Source: Candidatus Colenecus caballi
Lineage (GTDB): Bacteria > Bacteroidota > Bacteroidia > Bacteroidales > Bacteroidaceae
Direction: 5' to 3'
DNA length: 39,509 bases
NCBI GenBank assembly: GCA_018065615.1
Contig: JAGHSY010000055.1
Location: forward strand, 1-39,509
Shown: piece by piece, positions 12,469 through 18,694 of the stretch
How the letters are laid out: each line of letters opens with the position of its first letter
Position numbering within the stretch: the stretch's first letter is position 1
The notes under the pieces: model-generated
Seen by the model: the letters and a program-made list of their open reading frames with translations, nothing else
The model's database searches: none
What the model was told of the DNA's origin: nothing
Program-made: the position numbers and the translations under genes

Positions 12469-13806
12469 ATGAAACCTATCTGGGACAAGGGAAAACCGGT
12501 AAACGAACTCATTCAGAAATACACCGTAGGACGTGACCGCGAAATGGACCTTCTGCTTGCAAAGTATGACGTCCAGGGCTCACTGGCACACATAAGAATG
12601 CTTGAATCCATCGGACTTCTGGAGGCCGATGAACTGAAGGCTCTGTCTGACGGACTCAAGGACTTGCTGCCGGTCATTGAACGCGGAGAGTTTGTCATTG
12701 AAGACGGCGTTGAGGACGTGCATTCACAAGTCGAACTCATGCTGACCCGCCAGCTTGGTGACATGGGAAAGAAGATACACAGCGGCCGTTCGCGCAATGA
12801 CCAGGTGCTTGTTGACCTTAAGCTGTTCACACGTGACCGTCTGCGCGGAATTGTCAGTTCGGTGAAAGGCCTGTTTGACATACTTGTACGTCAGAGTGAA
12901 AAGTACAGGAACGTGCTTCTGCCCGGCTACACACACCTGCAGATTGCAATGCCTTCATCATTCGGACTGTGGCTTGGCGCATATGCCGAGGCCCTGACCG
13001 ATGACATGCTCCTGCTGCGCGCAGCCTTTGACCAGGCCAACCGCAACCCGCTGGGATCAGCCGCAGGCTACGGCTCGTCTTTCCCCCTGAACCGTCAGAT
13101 GACCACTGACCTGCTGGGTTTCGAATCAATGAACTACAACGTGGTCTATGCACAGATGACACGCGGAAAGCTGGAGCGCAACGTAGCTTACGCACTTGCA
13201 TCTGTAGCCGCCACCATAAGCCGTCTGGCCTTTGACGCCTGCCTGTACAACAGCCAGAACTTTGCTTTCATTAAGCTGCCTGACGACTGCACCACCGGTT
13301 CAAGCATCATGCCGCACAAGAAGAACCCCGATGTGTTTGAGCTGACACGCGCACGCTGCAACCGTCTCCAGGCCCTGCCGCAGGAGATCACATTGATGAC
13401 CAACAACCTTCCCAGCGGATATTTCCGTGACATGCAGCTGGTCAAGGAAGTGTTCCTGCCCGCATTCGAACAGATGGAGGAGATTCTTGCCATGACCGGA
13501 TACATGATGGACCACATGACTGTCAGGGAGAACATTCTTGATGACCCCAAGTACGATGCCATATTCAGCGTTGAAGAAGTCAACCGTCTTGCACGTGAAG
13601 GCATGCCTTTCCGTGAGGCCTACCGCAAGGTCGGAGCCGACATTGAAAACGGAACATTCAAAGCAGACAAGAACATTCACCACACCCATGAAGGCAGCAT
13701 AGGCAACCTGTGCAATGACCGCATAACAGCCCGCATGGAACAGCTGGTCTCACAGTTCCCGTTCAATGGGATAGATGCCGCCATTGAGAAGCTGACTTCA
13801 CGATGA
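12469..13806 (+). CDS. argH: Argininosuccinate lyase
   Basis: Last step of arginine synthesis: argininosuccinate to arginine and fumarate. It is 445 residues, slightly short of the common 455-465. Signature elements of the aspartase/fumarase superfamily are present: EDVHSQVELMLTRQLGDMGKKIHSGRSRNDQV read in two parts, LPGYTHLQIAMPSSFGLW, and the superfamily signature TTGSSIMPHKKNPDVFEL containing the catalytic serine loop. The gene is 11 bases after the SRPBCC gene, and its TGA overlaps the next ATG (ATGA). Confidence 0.95.
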   Translation: MKPIWDKGKPVNELIQKYTVGRDREMDLLLAKYDVQGSLAHIRMLESIGLLEADELKALSDGLKDLLPVIERGEFVIEDGVEDVHSQVELMLTRQLGDMGKKIHSGRSRNDQVLVDLKLFTRDRLRGIVSSVKGLFDILVRQSEKYRNVLLPGYTHLQIAMPSSFGLWLGAYAEALTDDMLLLRAAFDQANRNPLGSAAGYGSSFPLNRQMTTDLLGFESMNYNVVYAQMTRGKLERNVAYALASVAATISRLAFDACLYNSQNFAFIKLPDDCTTGSSIMPHKKNPDVFELTRARCNRLQALPQEITLMTNNLPSGYFRDMQLVKEVFLPAFEQMEEILAMTGYMMDHMTVRENILDDPKYDAIFSVEEVNRLAREGMPFREAYRKVGADIENGTFKADKNIHHTHEGSIGNLCNDRITARMEQLVSQFPFNGIDAAIEKLTSR

Positions 13807-14312
13807 AAAGGGGAATTCTGCTGCTGTTGACCATTCTTGCAACCGCAGGCTGCGAGAAAAACAGCTACAGCACATTCTCCAACAAGTACAGAGTGATATT
13901 CAGCTACAGCACACAGTATGAACCGTTCAACCAGATTACATCGGCGGGACGGTTCGTTTCAGTCAGACAGGTTGGCAGCATAATCAAAACGGTTGACTCG
14001 GACGGGAACAGAAAGGATTATGAACTGACTGAGATTCAAAGCCGTTCATTCGTCATGGGGCTGGCCGGACTCATAATAGGCACACCGACTTTGAACAATG
14101 ACGACATGTCTGTCTGGGCATACGACCTTGGCTGTCCCGAATGCGACAACGGAAACAGACTGACCTTCAACACAACAGGAAAGGCATCATGCGCCAAATG
14201 CGGCGGAATATGGGATATGAACCGAAGCGGCTTTCCGGAAAACGGCAAAATGCGGCCGCTCTACCGTTACCCCACATATTTCAGTTCTTCATCAATAACC
14301 GTCCAGAACTGA
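13803..14312 (+). CDS. Lipoprotein with a four-cysteine Rieske-like/zinc-ribbon domain
   Basis: Predicted lipoprotein of 169 residues. The signal peptide ends ATAGC, giving an acylated Cys at about residue 17. The C-terminal half carries two CxxC pairs: YDLGCPECDNG (about 106-116) and SCAKCGGIWDMNRSGFPENG (about 126-145). It then has a conserved-looking RYPTYF tail. The layout resembles Bacteroidetes lipoproteins annotated as Rieske-like, but here both metal-binding pairs are Cys-Cys rather than Cys-His, so zinc or iron binding is inferred. It overlaps the argH stop by 4 bases and is followed 4 bases later by a small barrel gene, so it is co-transcribed. Confidence 0.62.
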   Translation: MKRGILLLLTILATAGCEKNSYSTFSNKYRVIFSYSTQYEPFNQITSAGRFVSVRQVGSIIKTVDSDGNRKDYELTEIQSRSFVMGLAGLIIGTPTLNNDDMSVWAYDLGCPECDNGNRLTFNTTGKASCAKCGGIWDMNRSGFPENGKMRPLYRYPTYFSSSSITVQN

Positions 14313-14865: not shown

Positions 14866-17409
14866 TTATCTGTTGGCAGCACCCGGAGTAGGATTGTCCG
14901 ATACACGGAAATCACTGCTCAGATTATCAGTGTCATTTCCATCAGGGAAACGGACAAGACTCTTTGGAGCAGGAGCAGCATCGGTAGGACTGAACCTGCC
15001 AAAACCACCGAATCTTACACGTGTCTGCGGAACGACGGCTATGCTTCCGCCGGCACTCTGATCGCCCTCAAGGACGGCCAGTTCCGGACTGGCAATCGTA
15101 CCGTTGGCACTTGAACTGCTCTGCTGTGAACCATAGACTACGGCATCGGACACAACACCTGATCTGGGATCAAAAAGTTCGATGGAACCGGCTGTTTCTG
15201 AAAGTGAATAGCCATAATACTGATTGAATTCAGCCTTGCCTTTCAGAACCGGAGCCATGAGTTCCGCATCGGACTCAAGTGCAGGAGAAATGGTGTACGG
15301 CCTGCCAAGAGGCTGGATGGCGTCACCGCTGAAATGCTCGAACCTTATTGACGGGTTGAATGTCACGCCGGTCCCGTAACACCAGGCGTCAACCTTGGCA
15401 ATGTGGTTGCCTTTGAGCGGTTCCTTGAGTGATACGGTGCCTGCATCTTCAACACGCCCCTGTCCTATGCGGCGGCCTGCCGGGAGTGTGGAAGGCTTGA
15501 CAACGGCTGCTATGACCACCTCTTCAAGACGGTCTCCGGTATCGATCTTAAGCAACGAACCGGGTTCAAGACCTTCCGTTGACTCAAGTCTCAGTTCGGT
15601 GTCACCTGCTTTCGATTCAAATGAGATCACGGTCTGGAGAGCGGCTGTTCCGACTGACTTTACGGTCACGACTTCATAATTGCCGCCAAGATCTATACCC
15701 ATGAGCTGACCTGGTTCGAGACCTGCAACAGAGGTGACGGGCAGATTGAAAGCACCGTTCTGGAACCTGAGCCTGTAACCTTCAGACACCGGCATGAATA
15801 TGGTCGTCATGGGACCCGCCGGTGTTCCGGAACTGGCCTTGTATTCCTTTCCACCAATAATCACCTTTTCCGCATGGGCACTGAGACTGACTTCAGACGC
15901 ACCCTTGCCGGCAGCCACGGTAACAGCATTGGGGGCCAGTGCCAGAGTGTAGAAACCGCCGGCCGGAATCGTTGTTCCCTCAGGGATGGTGGCTATTGTC
16001 AAAGGAGCCCACCCGCTGCGGCGTGCAATTATCTGCATGCCGGACAAATCGGTCTCCGTCTTTGAGAAAAGTTCGATGAACTGGGGATATTCTGCATTTG
16101 CAAGCTGCACTTCATTTATCTTGACCGGTTCTGAACAGCGCAGGGGAACTGACACGGCAGACTCAACACCATCTATGACCACATGAATTGTGGCATAGCC
16201 GGCAGAGCGGAATGAAGGAGACCCGACTGCAATCTGAACTCCGTTGGAAGAACGGTTTTGGGAAACCAGTTTCCAGCCTTCGGGCAGGTCCACACCAAAA
16301 CTGTCAAACTGTGATGTCACAGAACAGAAAAGGCTCTTCTCTTCACCCGGAAGGAACGTTGTGGGACGGCTTACAGAAAGCGGGTACTTGTTGTACCTTA
16401 CCTTTGCTATGTTCTTCTGTACGGTACTGATTGCCTTGTCTGTGGGGTAGCCCACGGTCATGACGCCCTCAAAGAACGTGCCGGCAGAACCGTTGCCGTT
16501 GTCACCGCCGTTACCCAGCAGCATGGCGCCCTTCTTGTGCATCGGAAAGTAATTGTCATTGTCTGGGGTGCCGGGACGCACACCGCTGTAAAAGGTTATC
16601 AGCGTGTCCCATGATGCATCGGCCCCGCGCAGGTCCCAACGGTTGCCGCCACCGCCGTTCACAAAGACCGATACAAACGGCCAGCTGTCAATTGACGGGA
16701 CATCGTTCTTCTTGGGACTGTAGCCTGAAAACAGGCCGGACTCCATATCGGACATTATCCACGGGCCGTCACCGTTGCCGCTGCCCCACGCCGTTGCATT
16801 GCCGAAATATGTGGTTTCCATTGTGCCGGTGCCCACTGCACGTCCGTTGGTCGATGAGTTGCCGTAGTCAAAGCAGCAGCCGCTGTCATAGTGCGTGCCG
16901 TCAATCACGTAGTACATGCCTTCAGGTTCGTCATTGATGGCCAGACCGCGGGCCTGGTTGCACCGGAATCCCATTCCCGGCATGATGAATACGCCGTATG
17001 CCTTGTGCCCGTCAATAATGACAGGAGCCATGTCAGCAATTGGAAGCGTGTTGAAATTGCCCTTGTCGGGTCCCAAAAATGTTCCCGGAGGGGCCTGCAG
17101 CAGGTCATTGCCCATGCCTGACTGGTCATAGATCTTTGTTATGACACAGTACGTGCCCCTGCTGAATTCGTCCTGCATGGCGGCATTGGCATAGCCGTCC
17201 TTCAGGGCATATATGTCAAGCAGCTGTCCGTCGGACTCACGGCGCACCTGGTACAGCGGGCCGTCATATTGGGAATTGAGCAGACGCGTTGTGGAATGCG
17301 CCGTAACTGCGGGAGTGCCGTTCTTGCGGTAAATGTCACACGGCAGGTCACCACGGCCACAGCTTGTAATAGATGCAGCCAGGACAAGAAGAAATGTAAG
17401 TTTTTTCAT
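14866..17409 (-). CDS. GH54-type alpha-L-arabinofuranosidase lipoprotein with lamin-tail domain
   Basis: Predicted surface lipoprotein (Cys about 17) of 847 residues. Residues 22-340 match the catalytic domain of GH54 (fungal AbfB type) closely: CDIYRKNGTPAVTAHSTTR, IYDQSGMGNDLLQAPPG, GTHYDSGCCFDYGN with the vicinal Cys178-Cys179, and GDGPWIMSDMESGLFSG. E223 is the expected nucleophile, and D303 in LLGNGGDNGNGS the expected acid/base. In place of the fungal CBM42 there is a linker and a lamin-tail-like domain starting INEVQLANAEYPQFIELF (about 431) and ending FRVSDNPTPGAAN. It appears split by an insert with two GLEPG...ID.G repeats. The likely role is removing arabinose from arabinoxylan. 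It is divergent from an esterase. Confidence 0.85.
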   Translation of the reverse strand: MKKLTFLLVLAASITSCGRGDLPCDIYRKNGTPAVTAHSTTRLLNSQYDGPLYQVRRESDGQLLDIYALKDGYANAAMQDEFSRGTYCVITKIYDQSGMGNDLLQAPPGTFLGPDKGNFNTLPIADMAPVIIDGHKAYGVFIMPGMGFRCNQARGLAINDEPEGMYYVIDGTHYDSGCCFDYGNSSTNGRAVGTGTMETTYFGNATAWGSGNGDGPWIMSDMESGLFSGYSPKKNDVPSIDSWPFVSVFVNGGGGNRWDLRGADASWDTLITFYSGVRPGTPDNDNYFPMHKKGAMLLGNGGDNGNGSAGTFFEGVMTVGYPTDKAISTVQKNIAKVRYNKYPLSVSRPTTFLPGEEKSLFCSVTSQFDSFGVDLPEGWKLVSQNRSSNGVQIAVGSPSFRSAGYATIHVVIDGVESAVSVPLRCSEPVKINEVQLANAEYPQFIELFSKTETDLSGMQIIARRSGWAPLTIATIPEGTTIPAGGFYTLALAPNAVTVAAGKGASEVSLSAHAEKVIIGGKEYKASSGTPAGPMTTIFMPVSEGYRLRFQNGAFNLPVTSVAGLEPGQLMGIDLGGNYEVVTVKSVGTAALQTVISFESKAGDTELRLESTEGLEPGSLLKIDTGDRLEEVVIAAVVKPSTLPAGRRIGQGRVEDAGTVSLKEPLKGNHIAKVDAWCYGTGVTFNPSIRFEHFSGDAIQPLGRPYTISPALESDAELMAPVLKGKAEFNQYYGYSLSETAGSIELFDPRSGVVSDAVVYGSQQSSSSANGTIASPELAVLEGDQSAGGSIAVVPQTRVRFGGFGRFSPTDAAPAPKSLVRFPDGNDTDNLSSDFRVSDNPTPGAANR

Positions 17410-17428
17410 TAAGTTGGTCAGTTTTTCC

Positions 17429-17436
17429 CAAAGTTA
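17429..17436 (-). promoter_or_regulatory. Putative -7 box of the GH54 gene
   Basis: On the minus strand this reads TAACTTTG (TAnnTTTG), 20 bases before the ATG at 17409. The -33 position is not convincing. It lies 13 bases from the opposite-facing box for the esterase. Confidence 0.45.
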
Positions 17437-17448
17437 TGAATAAACCGC

Positions 17449-17456
17449 TACTTTTG
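17449..17456 (+). promoter_or_regulatory. Putative -7 box of the esterase gene
   Basis: TACTTTTG (TAnnTTTG) lies 26 bases before the chosen ATG at 17483. A T-rich run sits about 20 bases upstream. Together with the GH54 box it makes an overlapping divergent promoter, suggesting joint control. Confidence 0.45.
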
Positions 17457-17482
17457 ATAACCGAACCTTACCAAAAATGCAT

Positions 17483-18694
17483 ATGAAGAAATTTACAGCC
17501 ATCTTATCACTGGCACTTGTCATGAGCAGTGTCCAGGCACAGGATTCATTCAGAGTACGTGTCAGCCAGCCCGAACACGGAAAAGTCACGGTTTCACCGG
17601 CGGTTCCGGCCGACGGGATGGTAAAGGCCGGAACGGTCCTGACAATCAAGGCCGATGTCACCGACCCGGGATGGGTGCTGGAAAGCTGCTACTACCTGTC
17701 AACGGACAAGGGCATGTCCTGGCCCACCAACAAGGAGTCAATGGAGAACAACTTCAAGGTGACGGTTGACAACAACATGACAGTAGGCGCATCAATCATC
17801 GAAGCAGCACGGCTGGAGGGATATCGGACTGTAAATGACGTGGTATTTGCACAGCCGGGCAAAAAGCCGCTCAAGTACGATGTGTTCATACCGGACGGGG
17901 CAAAGAACCTGCCCTGCATAGTCATAATCCACGGCGGCGGCTGGTCTGCCAACAATGAGGACATTATGCGCGGACTGGCACGCGAACTGATAAAGGGCGG
18001 CAAGTACGTGGTCTGCAGCATAGATTACCGCTGGATTGGCAAGGCCGATGGCGACGATATGCCGAACACAATGAACCAGCTCATTGAGGACTGCTACGGC
18101 GCCATACTTCACATTAGGGAACATGCAAAAGAATACGGAATAGACCCCAAACGCATTGCCACTACCGGTGACAGCGCCGGCGGACACCTGTCATCGGCCA
18201 TGATCACGCTGGCCGGACGCATTGGTGACGGCGGTTTCGGGAACGGTGTCTATGAGTACCTGCCCACCTACATGCCCAAGGGGATGACTGCTAAGAAGGC
18301 ACGCAAGCAGCTGCTCAAATCCATCAGGGCCGCTGCACCCAGCTACGGCGTCTTTGACCGCGCCACCCTGTCACGTTTCGCCCAGGGTATGGAGGTCGAG
18401 GCCCAGATGGCCATCACCCCCGATGACAACATTCCTTCAATCAGGGAACGCGCCATTCCGCAGTACTTCGTTCTGGGCACCAATGACCGCACCGTCAGCC
18501 GCACACCTATTGAAAAATACGTTGAAAACCTGCAGAACGCAGGCCAGCGCGCCGAACTTGTCATGGTTGAAGGAGCCAGCCACGCCTTCTTTGACTGGAA
18601 GCCGGACAAAGGCACCAAGGACACCTTCGAAAAGTACGGTGTCCCCTACGCCGCAGACATGATGCGCTTCTTTGACAGCGTGTTCTATAAGTGA
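17483..18694 (+). CDS. Exported alpha/beta-hydrolase esterase (feruloyl/acetyl esterase-like)
   Basis: Secreted carboxylesterase-like enzyme of 403 residues. The start at 17483 (MKKFTAIL) gives a clean signal peptide ending VQAQ; ATG at 17477 adds two residues. Residues 20-100 form a beta-sandwich domain (VRVSQPEHGKVTVSPAVPADG). The hydrolase domain has the oxyanion loop IIHGGGW, the nucleophile elbow TTGDSAGGHLSS, the acid region FVLGTNDRTV and the catalytic His in GASHAFFDW. The HGGGW and GDSAGG pattern is that of BD-FAE/acetylesterase hydrolases. With the divergent GH54 enzyme it probably strips acyl groups from arabinoxylan; substrate specificity is inference. Confidence 0.82.
   Translation: MKKFTAILSLALVMSSVQAQDSFRVRVSQPEHGKVTVSPAVPADGMVKAGTVLTIKADVTDPGWVLESCYYLSTDKGMSWPTNKESMENNFKVTVDNNMTVGASIIEAARLEGYRTVNDVVFAQPGKKPLKYDVFIPDGAKNLPCIVIIHGGGWSANNEDIMRGLARELIKGGKYVVCSIDYRWIGKADGDDMPNTMNQLIEDCYGAILHIREHAKEYGIDPKRIATTGDSAGGHLSSAMITLAGRIGDGGFGNGVYEYLPTYMPKGMTAKKARKQLLKSIRAAAPSYGVFDRATLSRFAQGMEVEAQMAITPDDNIPSIRERAIPQYFVLGTNDRTVSRTPIEKYVENLQNAGQRAELVMVEGASHAFFDWKPDKGTKDTFEKYGVPYAADMMRFFDSVFYK

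Follow-up and report, generated by a model that had tools for sequence, protein, structure and literature searches.

A predicted GH54 arabinofuranosidase with an interrupted lamin-tail domain, common to Actinomycetota and a Bacteroidales lineage

How does a Bacteroidales genome come to carry a GH54-type arabinofuranosidase gene joined to an interrupted lamin-tail domain (LTD), and is the product likely to be a working enzyme? Such a gene lies on a contig of Candidatus Colenecus caballi (Bacteroidota; Bacteroidales; Bacteroidaceae; JAGHSY010000055.1), the whole 39,509 nucleotides of which were analysed and are called the window below. A preliminary description, made from the letters of the window, had read the product as a fungal-type GH54 lipoprotein that owed its form to horizontal transfer and domain shuffling. 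With good confidence we propose instead that the window gene encodes a cell-attached, retaining GH54 exo-alpha-L-arabinofuranosidase, that the composite gene is older than its transfer between phyla and is probably actinobacterial, and that two versions of it, types A and B, were inherited vertically thereafter. A complete multi-domain arabinofuranosidase is thus common, in two paralogous versions, to Actinomycetota and a Bacteroidales lineage, which corrects the label 'fungal' for the GH54 of the window. The features are collected in Table 1.

Table 1. Coordinates of the GH54 gene, its parts and its divergent neighbour in the window, and of the VKOR gene elsewhere in the same genome
Feature	Position	Strand	Basis or remark
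GH54 multi-domain CDS, type A paralogue, 847 aa	14866..17409	-	Intact ORF; purifying selection versus G014 orthologue
Putative signal peptide, residues 1-17, with lipobox cysteine C17	17359..17409	-	MKKLTFLLVLAASITSC, by eye
GH54 catalytic domain, residues 23-339	16393..17343	-	PF09206, E=8.7e-118; AkAbfB structures, E about 1e-100
Vicinal cysteines C178-C179	16873..16878	-	Aligned to AkAbfB pair; invariant
Predicted nucleophile E223	16741..16743	-	Aligned to AkAbfB E221; invariant
Predicted acid/base D303	16501..16503	-	Aligned to AkAbfB D297; invariant
NEW3/NPCBM_assoc-like domain, residues 345-425	16135..16377	-	PF10633 in 19/24 aligned homologues, window copy without match
LTD first half, residues 428-496	15922..16128	-	Homologous region matches LTD profile 4-73 of 109
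Insert within LTD, residues 497-730	15220..15921	-	Alignment A1/A3 and spliced LTD matches
Beta repeat m1, residues 546-594	15628..15774	-	Homologous to m2, z=10.5
Beta repeat m2, residues 597-637	15499..15621	-	Homologous to m1, z=10.5
LTD second half, residues 731-847, ending TPGAAN	14869..15219	-	Spliced homologues match LTD 8-108 of 109
Divergent promoter region	17410..17476	.	TAnnTTTG at 17429-17436 (-) and 17449-17456 (+)
BD-FAE-family carbohydrate-esterase-like protein, divergent neighbour	17477..18694	+	PF20434, E=7.8e-24; kept near GH54 in G014
VKOR-thioredoxin gene, own genome	L028:10817-11974, contig C92		Follows type-B GH54

Catalytic domain and putative export signal

The GH54 catalytic domain expected in the first 340 or so residues was recovered by a Pfam search, in which the window protein covered positions 1-314 of the 315 of PF09206, and the best solved structures in a PDB search were those of A. 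kawachii AbfB (AkAbfB). The residues that the preliminary description had singled out, E223, D303 and C178-C179, lie opposite E221, D297 and C176-C177 of AkAbfB, which we take to be its nucleophile, its acid/base residue and its vicinal cysteines, and they are invariant in the 24 aligned proteins. CBM42 (AbfB domain, PF05270) had been thought missing, and a Pfam search of the window protein gave no match to it; the domain was found in the relatives L043 and L170. Compared with AbfB (PF09206; PDB 1WD3, 6SXR-6SXT), the window protein is therefore alike in the full catalytic domain, the nucleophile, the acid/base residue and the vicinal cysteines, but has a NEW3 domain and a split LTD in place of CBM42, and a putative lipobox besides.

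A further difference from AbfB is that two AkAbfB cysteine pairs are half lost in the window copy (C24/A34 and S83/C88), the vicinal pair being retained. Both pairs are retained in L004, the 80%-identical sister of the window gene, and type B retains all six AkAbfB cysteines. Between the window gene and its orthologue in the sister genome G014, dN/dS was 0.10 for the GH54 part and 0.14 for the rest; the window gene is under purifying selection.

A putative lipobox (ITSC, residues 14-17) was recognized by eye; the lipoprotein model PF08139 matched just two of the 24 aligned proteins at E<=1. The enzyme would be exported, with a lipid anchor probably at C17, and would take arabinofuranosyl side chains off plant arabinoxylan or arabinan, E223 acting as nucleophile and D303 as acid/base.

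The NEW3 domain and the interrupted lamin-tail domain

The domains follow each other in the order signal, GH54, NEW3 and LTD with inserted repeats. The preliminary description had the LTD and its insert right and missed the NEW3 domain between GH54 and LTD. No Pfam match, LTD and NEW3 included, was obtained with the C-terminal part of the window protein, even at E<=10, and its LTD is a putative one, assigned through homologues. Among the 24 aligned proteins, 23 matched the Pfam LTD model (PF00932; best 1.6e-12), the window copy being the exception, and NEW3/NPCBM_assoc (PF10633) was found in 19, again without the window copy. When six homologues were scanned singly, all had an LTD above the curated cut-off; the match ended at profile positions 71-74 of 109, where the insert starts, in four of them and at 94-98 in the other two. 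Excision of the insert left three homologues matching LTD positions 8-108 of 109, with higher bit scores. The split that had been claimed thus holds for the homologues, in which both halves match the profile, and lacks a match in the window copy itself. In contrast to the lamin tail domain of PF00932, the LTD here is interrupted by two to three beta repeats.

The two GLEPG repeats that had been pointed out in the insert are homologous to each other in the window protein (score 66, z=10.5, 0/300 shuffles as high). Type A inserts hold two homologous repeats (z 7.7-10.5 in three proteins) and type B inserts three, with two more just before the final TPGxPN of type B. The guess that these repeats are actinobacterial in style was right. 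In the actinobacterial relative L171, from Actinoplanes subtropicus, a LamG-type domain sits within the LTD insert, indicating that the split point accepts further domains. Single-sequence structure models of residues 427-847 and of the insert, in which an Ig-like fold of the LTD was looked for, had a pLDDT of about 30 and were discarded. Profile searches of the PDB, made with the C-terminal part and again with the insert, returned nothing meaningful. The NEW3 and split-LTD part may form a beta-rich stalk or adhesion module.

This part of the protein had been presented as a new module. However, one of the bacterial GH54 architectures given in a paper of 2021 is 'ArabFuran-catal, RICIN, LTD, NPCBM_assoc and RPT1' (PMC8155123), and GH54 with LTD, NPCBM_assoc and repeats was therefore already in print. 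The window protein has the same set of GH54, LTD, NPCBM_assoc and internal repeats as group Bacterium I of that paper (LTD, NPCBM_assoc, RPT1, RICIN) and differs in having no RICIN; Bacteroidota are not among the phyla named for the group, nor is its LTD described as interrupted. What is added here is that the architecture occurs in Bacteroidales, that its LTD is interrupted and that types A and B are shared as a pair; no earlier paper on any of these points was found in the open-access collection searched. Papers rich in mentions of 'GH54' turned out to be about GH5_4.

A separate observation concerns the Novosphingobium plasmid pP6W1 (L167:3503-5404), on which the hypothetical protein WP_052505932 consists of a type-B split LTD with repeats and has no catalytic part. 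Transposase genes lie upstream of it.

Distribution and origin

The genome of the window has a second paralogue, type B, of 1086 aa on contig C92. Within the genus, 26 of the 37 genomes sampled gave a match; 24 genomes belonging to the order's other families gave none. An order-wide sample (n=393) contained true GH54 beyond the genus in only two genomes, which represent two genera of one other family and both carry type B, and in a phylum-wide sample (n=395) GH54 was confined to the window's own genome. Weak matches to PF09206 in five other Bacteroidota genomes and one Bacteroidales genome were short and partial (profile about 8-112) and were not counted as GH54; one of them, L154, is a LamG/DUF2341 protein. 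No relatives were found in viral contigs and phages.

Actinomycetota are rich in GH54. When named genomes were scanned, at least 559 GH54 relatives came up; the best 80 of these all belong to actinobacteria and share 65-76% identity with the fungal enzyme, which makes 'fungal-type' an accident of naming. Whole-genome searches located the GH54-NEW3-split-LTD architecture in four actinobacterial genes and overturned the reading that actinobacterial GH54 comes without LTD, which had been a sampling effect. The architecture is complete in all four: in L171, which has the LamG domain in its insert; in L170, from the Actinomycetes MAG Lab288P3bin173, where CBM42 follows the LTD; and in L178 and L179, which come from two genomes of the same class as L170. 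The last two have the domain order and split point of the window gene, but no lipobox was seen in them and their repeat m0 is well kept.

The preliminary description had proposed a phylogeny, and we computed a maximum-likelihood tree of 88 rows that included one fungal sequence and the four actinobacterial LTD forms. Bacteroidales type A has L178/L179 as its sister (100/100), and Bacteroidales type B has L170/L171 (100/99). All LTD forms make up one group (100/97), which lies inside plain actinobacterial GH54 (97/95) under an assumed rooting on a divergent actinobacterial clade, and the fungal sequence groups apart from the window gene. A single Bacteroidales clade was rejected (AU test, p=4e-6). 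Given this rejection and the separate actinobacterial sisters, the composite gene and the split into A and B are older than the transfer between phyla. Since the whole multi-part gene is common to actinobacteria, it was not assembled here, and the domain shuffling suspected in Bacteroidales has to be given up. The suspected horizontal transfer, in turn, is supported, GH54 being patchy in the order and its genes nested among actinobacterial ones. We infer that the composite enzyme arose before the transfer, probably in Actinomycetota, and would have split there into the two types; both would then have reached ancestors of the Bacteroidales genus, followed by vertical inheritance and by loss in some species. 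As GH54 of Acidobacteria, Verrucomicrobia and Proteobacteria was outside the sampling of the tree, the donor could belong to another phylum than Actinomycetota.

A donor of that kind is the core of one alternative, in which the composite came from a third phylum (e.g. Proteobacteria, Acidobacteria, Verrucomicrobia) and entered Actinomycetota and Bacteroidales independently. GH54 is reported from all three phyla and is placed there in a group that also has the LTD architecture (PMC8155123), and the Novosphingobium plasmid protein has a split LTD with repeats. On the other hand, our tree, which was made without third phyla, places the LTD forms inside plain actinobacterial GH54, and we regard this origin as the less likely one. 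An origin in fungi, with the LTD added by domain shuffling in Bacteroidales, is scarcely credible: the best PDB match is the fungal AbfB, but this merely reflects what has been crystallised, and both Bacteroidales types have actinobacterial sisters of the same architecture, with the fungal sequence elsewhere in the tree.

Another alternative concerns function rather than history. The window copy might be a decaying paralogue under relaxed constraint, with type B as the working enzyme, and the half-lost cysteine pairs (A34, S83), intact in the sister L004, would fit such decay, as would the want of a profile match to NEW3 or LTD. The low dN/dS in both parts of the gene, its open frame and the retained active-site residues make decay improbable, however.

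The VKOR-thioredoxin gene and the gene neighbourhood

Directly after the GH54 gene comes a VKOR-thioredoxin fusion gene (about 380-425 aa) in every one of the 17 type-B loci that were inspected together with their flanks; these loci span two Bacteroidales families and include both genomes of the other family. Within the genus, a genome has at most one VKOR gene. Each of the 20 genomes in which a type-B catalytic domain lies within a contig has this gene, as does G030, where it adjoins a type-B tail, the sole type-B part seen. It is missing in G002, in which the type-B gene is cut by a contig end, and was found in none of the 15 genomes of the genus without type B (association of VKOR with type B: Fisher p=2e-9, uncorrected for relatedness). 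Type B adjoins 19 of the 21 VKOR genes of the genus, the exceptions being G009, with VKOR beside type A, and G004, with VKOR on a separate small contig. Between the two families these VKORs resemble one another (252 and 224 bits) far more than they resemble other Bacteroidales VKORs (31 bits or less). The other VKORs were present in 12 of the 292 genomes sampled that lack GH54. No VKOR gene lies beside the four actinobacterial genes (L170, L171, L178, L179). In two loci, L029 and L030 (genomes G017 and G005), type B, VKOR and type A stand in tandem in this order, an arrangement which suggests that the two GH54 types may have come in as a single cluster.

We tentatively suggest that type-B GH54 and VKOR-thioredoxin might be inherited together in Bacteroidales as a two-gene unit, with a dedicated disulfide-forming enzyme that would accompany and fold one disulfide-rich glycosidase, and that the window gene might be the lipid-anchored paralogue minus cysteine pairs. 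This VKOR-type disulfide enzyme and type-B GH54 would be an example, open to test, of a secreted enzyme that takes a folding helper of its own along.

The window gene and its esterase-like neighbour diverge from a common upstream region. Here TAnnTTTG, the Bacteroides -7 consensus, is found once per direction, some 20 bases ahead of either ATG; across the whole window, the motif shows no enrichment. In G014, the sister genome, the GH54 gene and the BD-FAE-type esterase are separated by a GH3 enzyme, and these neighbours are in keeping with the enzyme proposed. The gene order is otherwise common to the window and G014, which argues against a misbinned contig. Elsewhere in the window (13803-14312), a small putative lipoprotein carries a CxxC...CxxC zinc-ribbon-like motif (PF08271, E=8e-4, below the cut-off), which is unusual for an exported protein.
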